This document shows positions 21,247 through 62,468 of a stretch of 64,000 bases of DNA, one piece after another. The notes below the pieces were generated by a model. That model had not been told where the DNA came from. It worked only from the letters and a program-made list of their open reading frames with translations, and did not search any database. A program made the position numbers and the translations under genes. Within the stretch, counting starts at the first letter, position 1, and each line of letters starts with the position of its first letter. Source of the DNA: Caldovatus aquaticus (lineage in GTDB: Bacteria; Pseudomonadota; Alphaproteobacteria; Acetobacterales; Acetobacteraceae); assembly GCF_019458025.1 (NCBI RefSeq), contig NZ_JAHZUY010000005.1, positions 62,001-126,000 of the forward strand. Reading direction: 5' to 3'.

Positions 21247-21317
21247 CGTCGGAGAATCCACCCTTGCCTCGCGCGCCGGGGGAGCGCGCGTCGCGCCGGA
21301 TCGCGGCCGGCCGGTGG

Positions 21318-21399
21318 TGCGGGCGGAGGGATTTGAACCCCCACGGCTTGCGCCACCGGAACCTAAATCCGGCGTGTCTGCCAGTTCCACCACGCCCGC
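21318..21399 (-). tRNA. tRNA-Leu(UAG)
   Basis: Folds as a class II tRNA of 82 nt with discriminator A. Acceptor arm GCGGGCG pairs with CGCCCGC, the anticodon stem CCGGA/TCCGG encloses TTTAGGT with anticodon TAG (21363-21365), there is a long variable arm, and the T-loop is TTCAAAT. It reads CUA leucine codons. CCA does not appear to be encoded. It lies 71 bp upstream of tig on the same strand. Confidence 0.95.
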
Positions 21400-31606: not shown

Positions 31607-32563
31607 TCACCCGAGGTTCCCCGGTTTCGCCACCACCTGGGACAGCGTCACCTCCCGGTGCCAGATGTAGAGGCCGGAGCCGATCAGCACGGCGATCCCG
31701 GCCGCGTCCCACGGATCGGGCAGCTCGCCCCAGAGCACGGCGCCCATCGCCACCGTCCAGACGATGGCGGAGTACTCGAAGGGCGCGAGCAGCGTGCTCT
31801 CGCCGGTGCGGTAGGCGTTGGTCATCATCACCTGCGCCAGCGCCGAGACCAGGCCGACGCCGGCTAGCAGCAGCCATTGCCCGGGCGTCGGCCACACCCA
31901 GACCGGGATCGCCGCCACCGCCGCGGCCAGCGAGGACCCGATCGCGAACCACAGCACGATCGTCACCCCCTGCTCGCCCGCCTCGCCCATGCGCCGGATG
32001 GTGATCATGGCGAGCGCCCAGCCCACCGCGCCGAGCAGCACCGCGCCGGCCGCGAACAGGTCGAGCGACGCCGCGCCTTCCGCGCCGGGCCGCACGATCA
32101 GCAGCACGCCGAGGAAGCCCACCGCCACCGCCGCGCTGCGCCGCCACCCGACCCGCTCGCCGAGCAGCGGCACGGACAGCATGGCGAGGAACAGCGGCAT
32201 GGTGAAGCCGAGCGCCGAGACCACCGCGAAGGGGAGGTGCGCGAGGCCGTAGAAGCTGCCGAACATGCCGAGCAGCCCGAACAGGGTGCGCGCCGCATGG
32301 CTCAGCGGATGGGAGGTGCGCAGCGCGGCGAGGCCGCCATGACGGAGCATCAGCGGCAGCAGGGCCGGGATCGCGAAGGCGTTGCGGAAGAACACCACCT
32401 CGGCGAGCGGCACCGTCCCGCCGAGCGCCTTCACGCAGGCCCCGGCGAGCGAGAAGGCGGCGGCCGCGGCGAGCACGAGCAGGATCGCGCGGGCGCGGGC
32501 CCGGCGCAGAACCTCGGGCACGAGGGCACCGGGCGGGCGCGGAGGGGACGGGGAGGCGGACAT
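31607..32563 (-). CDS. EamA/DMT-family transporter
   Basis: 318 aa, ten predicted spans in two five-span EamA repeats (about 26-160 and 168-305). Typical phrases are AFSLAGACVKALGGTVPLAEVVFFRNAF and VSALGFTMPLFLAMLSVPLLGE in the first repeat, and MTNAYRTGESTLLAPFEYSAIVW in the second. The family exports amino acids, purines or other metabolites; substrate unknown. It is divergent from the NUDIX gene with 37 bp between starts, so promoters must overlap. Confidence 0.9.
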   Translation of the reverse strand: MSASPSPPRPPGALVPEVLRRARARAILLVLAAAAAFSLAGACVKALGGTVPLAEVVFFRNAFAIPALLPLMLRHGGLAALRTSHPLSHAARTLFGLLGMFGSFYGLAHLPFAVVSALGFTMPLFLAMLSVPLLGERVGWRRSAAVAVGFLGVLLIVRPGAEGAASLDLFAAGAVLLGAVGWALAMITIRRMGEAGEQGVTIVLWFAIGSSLAAAVAAIPVWVWPTPGQWLLLAGVGLVSALAQVMMTNAYRTGESTLLAPFEYSAIVWTVAMGAVLWGELPDPWDAAGIAVLIGSGLYIWHREVTLSQVVAKPGNLG

Positions 32564-32600
32564 GGACGGGCGCTGCCGCCGAGGCTACGGTCGGCGCCGC

Positions 32601-33239
32601 ATGAAGGCCAGACACCCGAAGGCGCCCCCCCTTCCCGCCTATCCCGGGCTGCGCGTCGTCTCCGACGAGATCGTCTGGAACGGCCGCTTCCCGCTGCAGC
32701 TCGTGCGCTTCCACCATCGCCGCTTCGACGGGCGCGAGAGCGGCCTGCGCACCTGGGAGCTGTGGCGCCGCGGCCCCGCCGTCGCCGTGCTGCCCTACGA
32801 CCCCGGCGCGGACCGCGTGGCGCTGATCGAGCAGTTCCGCCTGCCCGCCCTCGCTGCCGGGCTCGACCCGGTGATGACCGAGTGCGCCGCGGGCTTCGTG
32901 GACCCGGGCGAGACGCCGGAGGCGGCGGCGCGGCGCGAGGCGATGGAGGAGACGGGCCTCGCCCCGGCGCGCCTCGAGCGCATGGGCCGCTGGATCCTGA
33001 GCCAGGGCGGCTGCGACGAGACCATCACCTGCTTCTGCGCCTGCCTGCCGCTGCCCGAGCCGGGCGCCGCGGCGCATCACGGCCTGACAGAGGAACACGA
33101 GGACATCCGGCTCAAGATCCTGGCCGCCGAGGAGGCCTTCGCCATGCTCGACGACAACCGCATCGCCAACGCCACGGCGGCGCTGGCGCTGTTCTGGCTG
33201 CGCACCCACCGCGACCGGCTGCGCCGCGAATGGGCATGA
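32601..33239 (+). CDS. NUDIX hydrolase, ADP-ribose pyrophosphatase-like
   Basis: 212 aa from ATG 32601. Complete NUDIX box GFVDPGETPEAAARREAMEETGL starting at residue 98. The preceding VALIEQFRLPALA and the ALALFWL helix near the end match the ADP-sugar pyrophosphatase (NudF) branch. It hydrolyses ADP-ribose or a similar nucleoside diphosphate derivative. First gene of a chained rightward operon; its TGA overlaps the alaX ATG. Confidence 0.88.
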   Translation: MKARHPKAPPLPAYPGLRVVSDEIVWNGRFPLQLVRFHHRRFDGRESGLRTWELWRRGPAVAVLPYDPGADRVALIEQFRLPALAAGLDPVMTECAAGFVDPGETPEAAARREAMEETGLAPARLERMGRWILSQGGCDETITCFCACLPLPEPGAAAHHGLTEEHEDIRLKILAAEEAFAMLDDNRIANATAALALFWLRTHRDRLRREWA

Positions 33240-33970
33240 GGACGATGGCGACCGAGGCGATCTTCCGCGCCGATCCCCGCGCGCGCGCGTGCGCCGCCCG
33301 CGTGCTCGCCGCGGGGCCGGAGGGCGTGGTGCTCGACCGCACCGTGTTCTATGCGCAGGGCGGCGGGCAGCCCGGCGATGTCGGCGTGCTGCGCTGGGAC
33401 GGCGGCGAGATGGCCGTGGCCAACGCCGTGAAGGGGCCGGAGGAGACGATCCTGCACCTGCCGGCGCCCGGCGCCCTCCTGCCGCCGGTCGGCGCCGAGG
33501 TGACGGCCGCGATCGACTGGGCGCGGCGGCACCGGCTGATGCGCATGCACACGACGCTGCACCTGCTCTGCAGCCTGATCCCGGGCGCCGGCGTGACCGG
33601 GGGGCAGGTCGGCCCGGACCGCTCGCGGCTCGACTTCGACCTGCCCGACCCCCCGGCGAAGGAGTGGCTCACCGAGCGCCTGAACGCGCTGATCGCCGCC
33701 GACCATCCGGTCGGCGAGCGGTGGATCGAGGAGGCGGAGCTGGATGCGAACCCGGGCCTCGTGCGCACGCTCTCGGTCAAGCCGCCGCGGGGGACGGGAC
33801 GGGTGCGGCTGGTGCGGATCGGGCCGGAGGCGGCGCCGGTGGACCTGCAGCCCTGCGGCGGGACGCATGTGCGCTCCACCGCCGAGATCGGCCGGGTCGA
33901 GGTGACGAAGCTGGAGAGCAAGGGCCGGCAGAACCGCCGCGTCTATGTCGTGCTGGCCGGGGAGGGATGA
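33236..33970 (+). CDS. alaX: AlaX-type alanyl-tRNA editing protein
   Basis: 244 aa from the ATG overlapping the NUDIX stop (33236-33239); ATGs at 33230 and 33245 are alternatives. It is a free-standing homologue of the AlaRS editing domain: an N-terminal beta-barrel part with VFYAQGGGQPGD (37-48), then the zinc motifs HTTLH (105-109) and CGGTH (207-211). It hydrolyses mischarged Ser- or Gly-tRNA(Ala) in the cytosol. There is no AlaRS synthetase domain. It is chained to sseA by an ATGA overlap. Confidence 0.9.
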   Translation: MRTMATEAIFRADPRARACAARVLAAGPEGVVLDRTVFYAQGGGQPGDVGVLRWDGGEMAVANAVKGPEETILHLPAPGALLPPVGAEVTAAIDWARRHRLMRMHTTLHLLCSLIPGAGVTGGQVGPDRSRLDFDLPDPPAKEWLTERLNALIAADHPVGERWIEEAELDANPGLVRTLSVKPPRGTGRVRLVRIGPEAAPVDLQPCGGTHVRSTAEIGRVEVTKLESKGRQNRRVYVVLAGEG

Positions 33971-34818
33971 GGGCGATGGAGGATCTCGTCTCGACGGCGT
34001 GGCTGGCGACAGAGCTGGGCAGGCCCGACCTGGTGGTGTTCGACTGCACCAAGTACCTGCCGAACGAGCCGCTCGACGGCCAGGCGGAGTTCCTCCGGGC
34101 CCACATCCCGGGGGCGCGCTACTTCGACATCGACCTGTTCGCCGATCCCGACACCGACCTGCCGCACATGGTCCCGACGCCGGGGCGCTTCGCGCGGCTC
34201 GCCGGCGCCGCCGGGATCGCGAACGCCTCGCGCGTCGTGTTCTACGACCAGAAGGGCCTCGCCAGCGCCGCGCGCGGCTGGTGGCTGATGCGGCTGTTCG
34301 GCCACGAGCGGGTGGCGGTGCTCGACGGCGGCCTGCCGAAGTGGCGCGCCGAGGGCCGCCCGGTCGAGAGCGGCGAGCCCGCGCCGCCGCGGCCTGCGGC
34401 CTTCGTGCCCGATTTCCGCGCCGACCGGCTCGCCGGCATCGGCGACGTCAAGCGCGTGGTGCGCGAGGGCGGCGCGGTGATCCTGGATGCGCGGGCGAAG
34501 GGGCGCTTCGACGGCACGGCGCCGGAGATCCGCCCCGGCGTCGCCTCCGGCCACATGCCGGGCGCGCGCAACCTGCCCTACACCGAGCTGCTCAACCCGG
34601 ACCAGACGATGAAGGACCCGGCGGCGCTGCGCGCGCTCTTCGCCGCGCGCGGCGTGGACGGGACCGCGCCGGTGATCACCTCCTGCGGCTCCGGCGTCAC
34701 CGCCTGCATCCTGACGCTCGGCTTGGTGCGCGCGGGGCTGCCGGAGGGCGCGGTGTACGACGGCTCCTGGACCGAGTGGGGCAGCCGCCCCGAGACCCCG
34801 AAGGCGACGAACCCCTGA
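33967..34818 (+). CDS. sseA: 3-mercaptopyruvate/thiosulfate sulfurtransferase
   Basis: 283 aa with two rhodanese domains: the N-terminal inactive one (about 5-140), with HIPGARYFDIDLFAD and GWWLMRLFGHERVAVLDGG, and the catalytic C-terminal one (about 160-280). The active loop is CGSGVT at 240-245, the mercaptopyruvate sulfurtransferase type. It moves sulfur from 3-mercaptopyruvate to thiols or cyanide. The start overlaps the alaX stop; the stop shares a base with the metC start (TGATG). Confidence 0.93.
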   Translation: MRAMEDLVSTAWLATELGRPDLVVFDCTKYLPNEPLDGQAEFLRAHIPGARYFDIDLFADPDTDLPHMVPTPGRFARLAGAAGIANASRVVFYDQKGLASAARGWWLMRLFGHERVAVLDGGLPKWRAEGRPVESGEPAPPRPAAFVPDFRADRLAGIGDVKRVVREGGAVILDARAKGRFDGTAPEIRPGVASGHMPGARNLPYTELLNPDQTMKDPAALRALFAARGVDGTAPVITSCGSGVTACILTLGLVRAGLPEGAVYDGSWTEWGSRPETPKATNP

Positions 34819-36038
34819 TGCCCGACGACAGCGCCCGGACCGGCCGGCGGCCCGCCGAGGGCGGCCACGGCTTCGCCACCCGCATGTCGCATGCCGGCCG
34901 CGCCGGCACGCGCGTGCACGGCTTCGTCAACCCGGCGGTGCACCGCGGCTCCACCGTGCTCGCGCCGAGCTGCGCGGCGCGGCGGGAGTTCGCGAAGCGC
35001 CGCTTCGACCAGTTCCTCACCTACGGCACCCAGGGCGGCCCGACGCACTATGCGCTCGAGGACGTCGTCGCCGAGATCGAGGGCGGCACGCGCTCGCTGA
35101 TCGTGAGCACCGGGCTTGCCGCCATCGCCGTGCCGCTGCTCGCCTATCTCAAGGCCGGCGACCACTGCCTGATGCCGGACAGCGTGTACGGGCCGGCGCG
35201 CGCCCTCGCCGACGGGCTGATGCGGGGCTGGGACATCGAGACCACCTTCTACGACCCGACGGTGGACGAAGCGGGGATGCGCGCGCTGATCCGCCCCAAC
35301 ACCCGCGTCGTCTACGTGGAAAGCCCGGGCAGCCACACCTTCGAGGTGCAGGACGTCCCGGCCATCGCCCGCGCCGCGCACGCCGCCGGGGCGAAGGTGC
35401 TGATGGACAACACCTGGGGCATCCACCACTTCCGGCCCTTCGCGCACGGCGTGGACGTCTCGATCCAGGCGCTCACGAAGTACGTCGGCGGGCACTCGGA
35501 CCTCCTGCTCGGCGCGGTCACGGTCAACAGCGAGGAGGACTGGCGCGCGGTGCGCGGCGCCGCCTCGCAGCTCGGCCAGTATGCCTCTCCGGACGACGTG
35601 TGGCTGGCGCTGCGCGGCGTGCGGACCCTGGCGGTCAGGCTGAAGCAGCAGGAGCGGAGCGGGCTCGAGGTGGCGCGCTGGTTCGAATCCCGGCCCGAGG
35701 TGCTGCGCGTGCTGCACCCCGCGCTCCCCTCCCACCCGCAGCACGCGCTGTTCAAGCGCGACTTCACCGGCGCCTGCAGCCTGTTCGGCGTGGTGTTCCA
35801 GCCGCGCTACAGCGAGGCCGACCTGTGCCGCATGATCGACGGCCTCGCGCTGTTCGGCATCGGCGCGAGCTGGGGCGGGTTCGAGAGCCTCGCGATCCCG
35901 ACCACCGGCTCCATCACGCGCACGGCAACGAGCGCCGATCTCGGCGGCCCCGCGGCCCGCTTCCACATCGGCCTCGAGGACCCGGCGGACCTGATCGCCG
36001 ATCTCGAGCGCGGGCTTGCGCTTCTCGAGGCGCGCTGA
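34818..36038 (+). CDS. metC: Cystathionine beta-lyase
   Basis: 406 aa Cys/Met-metabolism PLP enzyme. The PLP Lys is residue 221 in ALTKYVGGHSD, preceded by VLMDNTWG with the cofactor Asp. YGTQGGPTHYALEDVV near residue 69 and the C-terminal SWGGFESLA motif place it in the bacterial MetC branch rather than MetB/MetZ. It cleaves cystathionine to homocysteine, pyruvate and ammonia, and may also desulfurate cysteine. Its ATG shares a base with the sseA stop. Confidence 0.93.
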   Translation: MPDDSARTGRRPAEGGHGFATRMSHAGRAGTRVHGFVNPAVHRGSTVLAPSCAARREFAKRRFDQFLTYGTQGGPTHYALEDVVAEIEGGTRSLIVSTGLAAIAVPLLAYLKAGDHCLMPDSVYGPARALADGLMRGWDIETTFYDPTVDEAGMRALIRPNTRVVYVESPGSHTFEVQDVPAIARAAHAAGAKVLMDNTWGIHHFRPFAHGVDVSIQALTKYVGGHSDLLLGAVTVNSEEDWRAVRGAASQLGQYASPDDVWLALRGVRTLAVRLKQQERSGLEVARWFESRPEVLRVLHPALPSHPQHALFKRDFTGACSLFGVVFQPRYSEADLCRMIDGLALFGIGASWGGFESLAIPTTGSITRTATSADLGGPAARFHIGLEDPADLIADLERGLALLEAR

Positions 36039-37262
36039 GTGCGCCCCGCGCTTCCCGCCGGCGCCTGGCCGATCCTGCTCGGCGCGGCGCTGATGATGAG
36101 CCTCGCGATGGGGCTGCGGCAGAGCCTCGGCCTGTTCATGCCGCCCGCGGTGCGCGATCTCGGCATCGCGGTCAGCGAGTTCACGCTGGCGATCGCGGTG
36201 CAGAACCTGGTGTGGGGCTTCGGGCAGCCGGTCGCCGGCGCGCTCGCGCAGCGCCACGGCTTCCGCCCGGTGCTGCTCGCCGGCGGCGCGTTCTACGCCG
36301 CGGGCTTCGTCGTGCTGGCGCGCGCCGGCGGGACGGCGGCGGTGATGACCGGCGCGGGCGTGCTGATCGGCCTCGCCCTCGCCTGCACCGCCGCGGCGAT
36401 GGGCATGGCGGTGGCGGCGCGGGCCGTGCCGGCGGCGGTGCGCAGCACGGTGCTCGGGCTCGTCTCGGCGGCGGGGTCGCTCGGCGCGCTGTTCTCGGCG
36501 CCGATCGGGCAGGCGCTGTCCGACGCCTTCGGCTGGCGCGCCGGGGTGCTGGGCTTCGCGGCGCTGGCGCTGCTCATGCTGCCCGCGGCCTGGGCCGCCG
36601 GGCGGGTGGACCGGATGCCGGTGCAGCGCCTGGCGGGCGAGGCCGGCAGCGCGGGCGACGCGCTGCGCCTCGCCCTGCGGCACGGACCGTTCGCGGTGAT
36701 GGCGGGGGCCTACTTCATCTGCGGGCTGCAGCTCGTCTTCCTGACGACGCACCTGCCCTCCTACCTCGTGCTCTGCGGCATGGACCCGATGCTCGGGGCG
36801 CAGGCGCTGGCGGCGATCGGCGGCTTCAACGTGCTCGGCAGCCTGTTCTTCGGCTGGGCCGGCGGGCGCTGGTCCAAGCCCGGGCTGCTCGGCGGGATCT
36901 ATCTCGCGCGCTCGCTGGTGCTCGCCTGGTACTTCGCGACGCCGCCGACGCCGGGCTCCACGCTCGTCTTCGCGGCGGTGATGGGCTTCCTGTGGCTCGG
37001 CGTGGCGCCGCTGATCGCGGGCGCGGTGGTCGAGATGTTCGGGCTGCGCTGGCAGGCGATGATCCAGGGCGTGGCCTTCACCAGCCACCAGCTCGGCAGC
37101 TTCCTCGGCGCCTTCGGCGGCGGGCTGCTGTTCGATGCGCTCGGGTCCTACGACCTCGCCTGGAGGCTCGGGGTCGGCATGGGGATCGTGGCGGGGACCG
37201 CGCAGATCCTGGGGGCGTTCCCGCCGCGCTGGCCGGGGGCGCGGCGCGCCGCGCCAGGCTGA
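36039..37262 (+). CDS. MFS transporter
   Basis: 407 aa from a GTG directly abutting the metC stop. Twelve hydrophobic spans in two six-span halves, with a cytoplasmic central loop around residues 190-215 (RVDRMPVQRLAGEAG). SLAMGLRQSLGLFMPP at the start resembles the monocarboxylate/oxalate-formate antiporter-like MFS group. Its place behind sseA-metC suggests movement of a sulfur-containing or keto acid, but that is inference. Confidence 0.85.
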   Translation: MRPALPAGAWPILLGAALMMSLAMGLRQSLGLFMPPAVRDLGIAVSEFTLAIAVQNLVWGFGQPVAGALAQRHGFRPVLLAGGAFYAAGFVVLARAGGTAAVMTGAGVLIGLALACTAAAMGMAVAARAVPAAVRSTVLGLVSAAGSLGALFSAPIGQALSDAFGWRAGVLGFAALALLMLPAAWAAGRVDRMPVQRLAGEAGSAGDALRLALRHGPFAVMAGAYFICGLQLVFLTTHLPSYLVLCGMDPMLGAQALAAIGGFNVLGSLFFGWAGGRWSKPGLLGGIYLARSLVLAWYFATPPTPGSTLVFAAVMGFLWLGVAPLIAGAVVEMFGLRWQAMIQGVAFTSHQLGSFLGAFGGGLLFDALGSYDLAWRLGVGMGIVAGTAQILGAFPPRWPGARRAAPG

Positions 37263-37293
37263 GCCCGGGCGCGGCGCGGAGACGGCCTCGCGC

Positions 37294-37803
37294 TCAGGCG
37301 GCGCCGGCGCAGGCGGGGCAGCGCCCCTCGATCTCGACCGTCGCGCGCAGGGCCGTGAAGCCGGCCCGGGAGGCCGCCGCGGCGACGGCGCGGGCCACGG
37401 CGTCGTCGGTCAGCTCGTGCGTTGCGCCGCAGCCGCGGCAGATCAGGAACTGGTGCGGGTGGTCGTGGGCGCCGTCGCAGGCGCAGTCGGCGGGGTGGCC
37501 CTCGGCCTCGCGGCAGCCGACGAAGGCGTTCAGGCGCTCCACCTTGTGGATCAGCCCCTGCTCCAGCAGGAAATCGAGCGCGCGATAGACGGTCGGCGGC
37601 GCCGCGCCGGGACGCTCGGCCTTCAGCCGGTCGAGCAGCGCGTAGGCGCCGACCGGCTGGCGGGCCTCCAGCACGAGGCGCAGCACCTGGCGGCGCAGCT
37701 CGGTCAACTGGGTGCCGCGCCGGGCGCAGGCCGCTGCGGCCCGGTCCAGCGCCGCCTCCACGGCCGCCCCCGTCGCCGCTCCGCCCAGGCCGCCCCTGTC
37801 CAT
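37294..37803 (-). CDS. zur: Fur-family regulator, probably Zur
   Basis: 169 aa. The winged-helix half (about 28-90) has LTELRRQVLRLVLEARQPVGAYALLDRL and PPTVYRALDFLLEQGLIHKVE. The dimerisation/metal half has HDHPHQFLICRGCG and a C-terminal CPAC, giving the two CxxC pairs of a structural zinc site. The HxHPHQF pattern and overall length favour Zur (zinc uptake repressor) over Fur. It is divergent from hisI with 46 bp between starts. GGAGG precedes the ATG. Confidence 0.82.
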   Translation of the reverse strand: MDRGGLGGAATGAAVEAALDRAAAACARRGTQLTELRRQVLRLVLEARQPVGAYALLDRLKAERPGAAPPTVYRALDFLLEQGLIHKVERLNAFVGCREAEGHPADCACDGAHDHPHQFLICRGCGATHELTDDAVARAVAAAASRAGFTALRATVEIEGRCPACAGAA

Positions 37804-37836
37804 CCCGCGAGGTCCTCCGCGATCGTCCGTCGCGGC

Positions 37837-37842
37837 AGTATA
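37837..37842 (-). promoter_or_regulatory. Candidate -10 box for zur
   Basis: TATACT on the minus strand, within a TATATA stretch that is the only AT-rich spot of the zur-hisI gap. It would give a leader of about 27 nt with GGAGG before the zur ATG. No good -35 is seen. The AT-rich palindromic patch could equally be an operator. Confidence 0.35.
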
Positions 37843-37849
37843 TAGGGGC

Positions 37850-38269
37850 ATGAGCGAAATCGCGCCCGTCGCCGATGCGACCGCCCGCGCCCGGCTGCTC
37901 GATGCCGTGCGCTTCGACGCCCGCGGCCTCGTCCCCGTCGTGGCCCAGCAGCACGACACGGGGGAGGTGCTGATGCTGGCCTGGATGAACCGCGCCGCCC
38001 TCGCCGAGACGCTGGCGACGGGCCGCGTGACCTACTACTCGCGCTCGCGCGACGCGCTGTGGCGCAAGGGCGAGACCAGCGGGCAGGTCCAGCGCCTGGT
38101 GGACCTGCGGCTCGACTGCGACGGCGACGCCCTGCTCGCGCTGGTGGACCAGCAGGGGGTCGCCTGCCACACCGGGCGGCGGAGCTGCTTCTCCTGGGCG
38201 CTGCGCGAGGGCGCCGTGCGGTCGGTCGCCGAACCCCTGGTTGATCCGAAGACACTCTACGACCGGTGA
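37850..38269 (+). CDS. hisI: Phosphoribosyl-AMP cyclohydrolase
   Basis: 139 aa, full-length single-domain HisI without a HisE fusion. Motifs are VRFDARGLVPVVAQ, WMNRAALAETL, YYSRSRDALWRKGETSG, the metal-binding DCDGDALLALV and HTGRRSCF. It catalyses the third step of histidine synthesis. No other his gene is adjacent. The spacer before ATG 37850 is unusual: AGGGGC almost touches the ATG, so translation may be leaderless or weakly initiated. Confidence 0.95.
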   Translation: MSEIAPVADATARARLLDAVRFDARGLVPVVAQQHDTGEVLMLAWMNRAALAETLATGRVTYYSRSRDALWRKGETSGQVQRLVDLRLDCDGDALLALVDQQGVACHTGRRSCFSWALREGAVRSVAEPLVDPKTLYDR

Positions 38270-39886: not shown

Positions 39887-41040
39887 GCCTCGTCTACCTG
39901 GTCGCCGGCGAGGCTTCGGGCGACGCGCTGGGGGCGCGGCTGATCGCGGCGCTGCGCGCGCGGCGGCCCGACCTCGCCTTCGCCGGCATCGGCGGGGAGC
40001 GCATGGCGGCGCAAGGCGTCGCCTCGCTGTTCCCGATGCGCGAGCTGGCGCTGATGGGGCTCCTCGAGGTGCTGCCGAACCTGCGCCGACTCGCGCGCCG
40101 GCTGCGCGAGGCGGCGGCGGACATCGCGGCGCGCCGGCCGGCGGTGGTGGTGACGATCGACTCGCCCGGCTTCGCGATGCGCCTCGCCGCGCGGGTGAAG
40201 CCGCTCGGCATCCCGCTGGTGCACTACGTCGCGCCGCAGGTCTGGGCCTGGCGCCCGGGCCGCGTGGCCCAGATCCGCGAGCGGGTGGACCGTATCCTCG
40301 CGCTGCTGCCGTTCGAGCTGCCGTTCTTCGAGGCCGCCAGCATCCCGGTGACCTTCGTCGGCCATCCGGTGCTGGAGAGCGGCGCCGATGCCGGCGACGC
40401 CGCCCGCTTCCGCGCCCGGCACGGGATCGCGCCGGAGGAGCGCGTGGTGGTGGCGATGCCGGGCAGCCGGCGGATGGAGGCGGCCCGGCTGCTGCCGGTG
40501 TTCGGCGAGGCGCTCCGCCTCGCCGCCCGGCGGGCGCCGGGGCTGCGCCCGGTGGTGCCGGTGGCGGGCGTGGTGGAGGGCATGGTGCGCGCCGCCGCGG
40601 CCGCCTGGCCGGTGGCGCCGGTGCTGGTCGCGACGCCGGAGGACAAGCACGACGCTTTCGCCGCCGCCGCGGCGGGGCTGATCAAGAGCGGCACCTCCTC
40701 GCTGGAGATGGCGGTGGCAGGGGTGCCGCACGTGGTGGCCTACCGCGTCAACCCGGTGACGGCGGCGATCGTGCGGCGGCTGGTGCGGGTGCCGTATGCG
40801 TCGCTGGTGAATCTGCTGAACGAGGCGCCGGTCGTCACCGAGCACCTGCAGGAGGATTGCACGCCGCCGGCGCTGGCGGAGAGCCTGGTGCGGCTGCTGC
40901 GCGATCCGGCAGCGGCGGCGGCGCAGCGCGCGGGCTTCGCCGCGGCGCTCGCGCGGTTGCGCCCGCCGCAGGGCCGGCCGAGCGAGGCGGCGGCGGCGGC
41001 GGTGCTCGAGGCGATGGCGCGGCGGGAGGCGGCGGCATGA
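39883..41040 (+). CDS. lpxB: Lipid-A-disaccharide synthase
   Basis: 385 aa. GT19 enzyme with VAGEASGDALGARL at the N-terminus, VTIDSPGFAMRLAARVK, HYVAPQVWAWRPGRV, FVGHPVLE, and LIKSGTSSLEMAVAGVPHVVAYR near residue 260. It condenses UDP-2,3-diacylglucosamine with lipid X at the inner membrane. ATG 39883 overlaps the nitrilase stop; upstream residues in the open frame are shadow. The lpxD/fabZ/lpxA genes are not adjacent. Confidence 0.95.
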   Translation: MSLVYLVAGEASGDALGARLIAALRARRPDLAFAGIGGERMAAQGVASLFPMRELALMGLLEVLPNLRRLARRLREAAADIAARRPAVVVTIDSPGFAMRLAARVKPLGIPLVHYVAPQVWAWRPGRVAQIRERVDRILALLPFELPFFEAASIPVTFVGHPVLESGADAGDAARFRARHGIAPEERVVVAMPGSRRMEAARLLPVFGEALRLAARRAPGLRPVVPVAGVVEGMVRAAAAAWPVAPVLVATPEDKHDAFAAAAAGLIKSGTSSLEMAVAGVPHVVAYRVNPVTAAIVRRLVRVPYASLVNLLNEAPVVTEHLQEDCTPPALAESLVRLLRDPAAAAAQRAGFAAALARLRPPQGRPSEAAAAAVLEAMARREAAA

Positions 41041-60792: not shown

Positions 60793-60890
60793 GGCGGCAC
60801 GGCGGCCGGCGGGGCAGCGCGGCCACGGCGCCGGGTTGAAGCGGCGCCGGGGCGGGGCTAGAGCACGCGCGCCCCGTCCGGAAGCCCGCC

Positions 60891-62468
<1,578 letters not shown>

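Follow-up and report, generated by a model that had tools for sequence, protein, structure and literature searches.

A predicted free-standing tRNA editing protein, AlaX, is encoded among serine and cysteine metabolism genes in Caldovatus aquaticus and other Alphaproteobacteria

We analysed a 64,000-nucleotide stretch of the Caldovatus aquaticus genome (contig NZ_JAHZUY010000005.1, positions 62,001 to 126,000; called the window below), in which alaX, the gene for a free-standing editing protein of the alanyl-tRNA synthetase (AlaRS) type, is packed together with sseA and metC, two genes of sulfur amino acid metabolism. AlaX, SseA and MetC are known families. Comparison of gene order indicated that the link between alaX and cysteine genes is real and widely conserved, and it was undescribed in the literature searched. 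We put the probability at about 60% that AlaX serves as a backup enzyme that deacylates Ser-tRNAAla and is expressed together with the genes of serine-to-cysteine metabolism, a reading in which the substrate and the co-transcription are presumed.

alaX, sseA and metC form a conserved run in the Acetobacteraceae

Five genes follow one another on the plus strand of the window: a gene for a NUDIX hydrolase of the YffH/AdpP type (ADP-sugar pyrophosphatase-like; 32601-33239), alaX (33236-33970; 244 aa), sseA, for a 3-mercaptopyruvate sulfurtransferase-like protein (33967-34818), metC, for cystathionine beta-lyase (34818-36038), and a gene with a GTG start for a transporter of the major facilitator superfamily (MFS; 36039-37262). 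When the junctions were recomputed from the sequence, the NUDIX gene overlapped alaX by 4 bases, alaX overlapped sseA by 4 and sseA overlapped metC by 1, and metC abutted the MFS gene, exactly as in the chain given by a preliminary description of this DNA; the span proposed there (33236-37262) covers alaX to the MFS gene and omits nearly all of the NUDIX gene. The overlaps suggest that the five genes would be read as one transcript. The junctions alaX/sseA (-4), sseA/metC (-1) and metC/MFS (0) recurred in a relative of the same genus (L063), where a gap of 2 bases separated the NUDIX gene from alaX.

Gene identities were taken from NCBIfam and Pfam scans. The NUDIX protein, which matched PF00293, scored 119.1 bits with TIGR00052 (cut-off 79.55) and stayed below the ADP-ribose diphosphatase equivalog PRK10729 (149.6 bits against a cut-off of 248). 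SseA contained two PF00581 rhodanese stretches and a CGSGVT loop and scored 236.3 bits with PRK11493, against a cut-off of 250. MetC reached 450.6 bits with TIGR01324 (cut-off 365.9), and the MFS transporter matched PF07690 with 113.3 bits.

AlaX scored above 200 bits in 76 of the 150 Acetobacteraceae genomes searched, C. aquaticus included, and we examined the loci of the other 75 with up to about 6 kb on each side. Neighbours were scored by tblastn in position windows. The loci spanned at most about 12.7 kb, and contig ends cut many of them short, so that 'directly' means by position; clustering of open reading frames (ORFs), muddied by shadow frames of the G+C-rich DNA, served only to find candidate partners, which were then counted by tblastn. 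Because some of the genomes are incomplete, the absence of a match need not mean that the gene has been lost. sseA, on the same strand as alaX, followed it directly in 69 of the 75 loci and lay further off in 2; it was not found in 4, two of which were cut by a contig end. metC came next after sseA in 64 loci and further off in 4, and the NUDIX gene adjoined alaX in 51. As comparison neighbours, EamA, Fur/Zur and hisI genes were found in 31, 29 and 35 loci, respectively. The MFS gene, counted into the set by the preliminary description, adjoined metC in only 3 of the 75 loci and lay further off in 6, and we rejected it as a conserved operon member.

Overlap or abutment was seen in 40/50 measurable NUDIX-alaX pairs, 25/68 alaX-sseA pairs and 32/66 sseA-metC pairs, the start codon nearest to the preceding stop having been chosen, which favours small gaps. 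Named close relatives among these loci belong to Roseomonas, Neoroseomonas and Belnapia, and Belnapia rosea (L227) has the order NUDIX-AlaX-SseA-MetC-MFS. The order alaX-sseA-metC is beyond chance.

Other alphaproteobacterial families have cysK upstream of alaX

Outside the Acetobacteraceae, the counts rest on 80 loci of other alphaproteobacterial families, out of 109 matching genomes other than C. aquaticus; 29 were left out, one of which (G413) was read later. A cysK gene lay upstream of alaX in 51 of the 80 loci (directly in 45, further off in 6). It is of the PRK10717 type, one representative scoring 568.3 bits (cut-off 387). sseA followed alaX in 53 loci (directly in 47, further off in 6), metC was found directly in 9 and further off in 12, and a GNAT gene in 32. 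As an internal control, EamA and MFS genes of the kinds seen in the window were found in none of the 80 loci at the scored positions, Fur in 3 and HisI in 7, against 51 for CysK and 53 for SseA. Fourteen further class loci outside the 80 gave a similar picture: 12 had cysK before alaX and 10 had sseA behind it. Dongia mobilis (L269) has the order CysK-AlaX-SseA, and Azospirillum brasilense (L278) NUDIX-CysK-AlaX-SseA-GNAT.

These counts and those of the Acetobacteraceae bear out the earlier claim that AlaX is tied to sulfur amino acid enzymes, and the alaX-sseA order, shared by family and class loci, is not unique to one genome. Membership of the NUDIX gene held in part: it adjoins alaX in most loci of the family, and its position in 23 of the 80 class loci is further upstream, with cysK also upstream in 22 of them.

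Because cysK precedes and sseA follows alaX in so many of the class loci, the older order was probably NUDIX-cysK-alaX-sseA-metC, and the arrangement in the window would be derived from it by removal of cysK. The PRK10717-type cysK itself is still present in 124 of the 150 Acetobacteraceae genomes (E <= 1e-90), including C. aquaticus, whose copy lies on another contig (C120); loss of this gene from the family was rejected.

In 7 of the 80 class loci (L145, L153, L158, L159, L174, L178, L184), a gene for a PRK06110-type threonine dehydratase lay directly upstream of alaX instead of cysK, a link that would favour serine. In some of these seven loci, an ORF that we take to be PhzF-like lies close to alaX. 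In Thalassovita autumnalis (L276) and Cognatishimia activa (L300), NUDIX and CysK genes are followed by an inserted MscS-like gene and AlaX, with no SseA. An MscS-like gene between cysK and alaX was also seen in L212 (781 codons), L320, L321, L324 and L325; the named loci with this insertion are from Rhodobacteraceae-like genomes.

A second class carries alaX behind other cysteine genes

A profile of 32 AlaX sequences was searched against 299 genomes of the phylum (E <= 1e-45). It matched 39 of them, C. aquaticus included, 6 of which lie outside the class. In 3 of these 6 loci, all from one family (f177) of another class, AlaX was preceded by a JAB-ThiF-rhodanese protein, a cysteine synthase-like protein and a CysE-like serine acetyltransferase; the latter two are called 'like' since they score below the curated equivalog cut-offs. 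Within f177, AlaX was found at E <= 1e-40 in 17 of 148 genomes, and the cysteine synthase-like and CysE-like genes lay directly upstream of alaX in 15 of the 17 loci, as counted with 1.5-kb flanks, in which the cysteine synthase-like gene is seen only in part. L306, L309 and L311 were also read with 6-kb flanks; in these three (L311:2129-6711), the JAB-ThiF-rhodanese fusion, the cysteine synthase-like gene and the CysE-like gene precede alaX in a run with short overlaps. We presume that this set resembles sulfur-carrier-dependent cysteine synthesis. Of the f177 loci, L341 has AlaX without the two upstream genes. In L342 (190-1914), the JAB gene is followed by a shortened ThiF-type gene that leads directly into a partial alaX; this looks like a decayed copy, as if the intervening cysteine genes had been deleted.

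The f177 cysteine synthase-like protein shares 35% identity with its alphaproteobacterial-type counterpart. In a quick tree, for which a random 22 of the Acetobacteraceae loci were taken, the f177 AlaX proteins grouped together in a single clade, and its closest sister rows, L307 and L310, are without a cysteine link. Given the 35% identity of the cysteine synthases and these sister rows, two origins of the link between AlaX and cysteine synthase are likely, and a single old origin with replacement is a less favoured alternative.

The AlaX fold and zinc ligands look intact

AlaX of the window matched PF07973 with 52.2 bits (cut-off 24) and PF01411 with 45.5 bits (cut-off 30.3). With the AlaXM equivalog NF040865 it scored 192.9 bits against a cut-off of 300, and on that account we class it as AlaX-M-like and not as the NF040865 equivalog. 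Its structure model had a mean pLDDT of 93.5, and its best fold matches were editing domains of AlaRS; AlaX-M of Pyrococcus was matched as well. The zinc-ligand motifs HxxxH and CxxxH are formed by H105, H109, C207 and H211. All four positions were identical in 154 of 154 aligned AlaX sequences, 2 of 156 having been left out as too short, and also in 32 of 32 sequences of a second alignment. In AlaRS, the same motif is described to bind a zinc that recognises the serine hydroxyl (PMC8857464). The fold and the zinc ligands of AlaX thus look intact in the model and the alignments.

The AlaX-M trans-editing proteins of Pyrococcus (2e1b, 9iuw) share the predicted fold (Foldseek E-values of 1.2e-16 and 2.0e-17, 26-27% identity), the free-standing single editing domain and the HxxxH/CxxxH ligand motifs; window AlaX differs from them in falling under the NF040865 cut-off and in being encoded in a cysteine/methionine gene cluster. 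It is 31% identical to the AlaRS of its own genome over 229 columns; unlike that separately encoded enzyme, it is free-standing and has no aminoacylation domain. YbaK, which acts on Cys-tRNAPro, is likewise a free-standing guard against mischarging, there by cysteine, and is listed as a different family from AlaX (PMC3158927); it is by this description that we set the two apart.

Proposed role of AlaX and alternatives to it

AlaXp proteins are described to hydrolyse Ser- and Gly-tRNAAla (PMC11295145; PMC3158927), and one account presents AlaX as a redundant safeguard against the misincorporation of serine for alanine (PMC3158927). In Escherichia coli, CysK and MetC are described to have cysteine desulfhydrase activity and SseA to contribute to sulfane sulfur (PMC6401616). 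The genes around alaX indicate serine or O-acetylserine no less strongly than a thiol: the PRK10717-type cysteine synthase, the PRK06110-type dehydratase and the products of the CysE-like genes would all act on serine or serine products. Joining the zinc motif, the AlaXp substrates and the activities of the partner enzymes, we consider clearance of Ser-tRNAAla under plentiful serine or O-acetylserine the most likely role. In this proposal, a conserved serine/cysteine-metabolism operon would carry its own tRNA proofreading enzyme. AlaX would hydrolyse Ser-tRNAAla, and probably also Gly-tRNAAla, that escapes AlaRS, and it would be made together with enzymes that handle sulfur amino acids derived from serine (CysK in the older order, SseA and MetC in the window). 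Proofreading capacity might then rise as serine or O-acetylserine accumulates, for example when sulfide is short. We infer the single transcript, the AlaX substrate and the condition of need. A naming of sseA for serine sensitivity was unsupported, that name being given to sseB in PMC7667032, and it was not used.

Several observations weigh against this reading. The AlaRS of C. aquaticus keeps the editing motifs HSATH and CGGTH (L076 was skipped in the comparison of these motifs); AlaX would thus be a second check and at most a backup, and we rejected the idea that it replaces an editing site lost from AlaRS. No AlaX match above 200 bits was obtained in 74 of the 150 Acetobacteraceae genomes, and L122 and L127 of this family have alaX without sseA in uncut loci. 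Among the 74 AlaX-less genomes, 50 have both sseA and metC, and the pair is adjacent in 49, as counted with one SseA and one MetC match per genome (for G123, the weaker SseA match beside metC was used and not a stronger one elsewhere); in the remaining genome (G128), sseA lies at a contig end and metC on another contig. The pairing of sseA with metC is therefore independent of AlaX: the sulfur genes do not need AlaX, and the two stand as a separate unit. In 15 of the 80 class loci, alaX had none of the scored partners nearby; two of these (L177 and L213) have a dehydratase-like gene further upstream, and others lie beside unrelated genes. sseA was also absent from the four loci read among those with an MscS-like gene between cysK and alaX, and 3 of the 6 loci outside the class have no cysteine gene near alaX.

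The persistence of the sseA-metC pair without AlaX, the loci in which alaX adjoins other genes and the intact editing motifs of the cell's own AlaRS would also suit a co-location without any substrate link, in which alaX is carried in a compact block of amino acid genes and shares only expression with them. We consider this rather unlikely, given that, from one family to another, cysK and sseA persist and neighbours such as EamA and MFS genes disappear, and that a second class has AlaX behind a different cysteine synthase-like gene and a CysE-like gene. The linkage of AlaX to cysteine synthases of two subfamilies, as well as to sseA and metC, could instead mean that AlaX clears a mischarge in which the amino acid is not plain serine but a product of the cysteine pathway, namely O-acetylserine, cysteine or a further beta-substituted alanine formed by pyridoxal phosphate (PLP) enzymes; AlaX, being well below the AlaXM cut-off (192.9 against 300), could differ in specificity. 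The described AlaXp substrates, Ser- and Gly-tRNAAla (PMC11295145), and the full conservation of the ligand positions both speak against such a mischarge; the term Cys-tRNAAla was not found among the literature matches listed, and the open-access literature search gave nothing related to mischarged O-acetylserine. We regard it as quite improbable. A bolder form seems a long shot: operon structure would bind AlaX to cysteine synthesis in at least two classes because the pathway yields an amino acid (O-acetylserine, cysteine or a by-product) that becomes wrongly attached to tRNAAla or another tRNA, and the AlaX subfamily would have specialised on it as a dedicated proofreader.

Boundaries of the gene run and surrounding features

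A divergent gene for an EamA transporter (31607-32563, minus strand) starts 37 bases before the NUDIX gene, leaving by gene coordinates a 37-base gap (32564-32600), and a convergent Fur/Zur-type gene (37294-37806, minus strand) ends 31 bases behind the MFS gene. With these flanks, the five genes would be the whole unit if they form one operon, and any shared promoter would lie within 32564-32600 or inside the start of the EamA gene. A consensus scan of 32300-37900 gave no sigma-70-type promoter and no intrinsic terminator, a result of little weight in such G+C-rich DNA. A known regulatory RNA near the operon was rejected, as the sole Rfam match at gathering scores in the whole window was a tRNA. 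ARAGORN and Rfam agreed on a tRNA-Leu (21315-21399). ARAGORN also called a tRNA-Pyl (60821-60894, minus strand) and a tRNA-Gly (40457-40533, plus strand) inside a long ORF; both are absent from Rfam at gathering scores and may be false calls. Behind the operon, the Fur/Zur gene (minus strand) and hisI (plus strand) occupy 37294-38269. metC followed by Fur/Zur and hisI was also seen in some loci of other families (L172, L183, L194, L304), for no obvious reason.

Significance

The preliminary description had not recognised this gene combination as a described one. We likewise found no description of an alaX-sulfur gene neighbourhood in the open-access literature searched, most subscription papers lying outside that search. 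The available part of PMC3158927 says little on when bacteria need AlaX, and the link to serine and cysteine genes offers a testable answer, in which the capacity for editing would track metabolic conditions under which serine or one of its products increases. Were the link to concern a non-canonical amino acid, it would mean a new editing substrate. The conserved neighbourhood suggests that the cell checks errors of protein building where serine and cysteine are handled.

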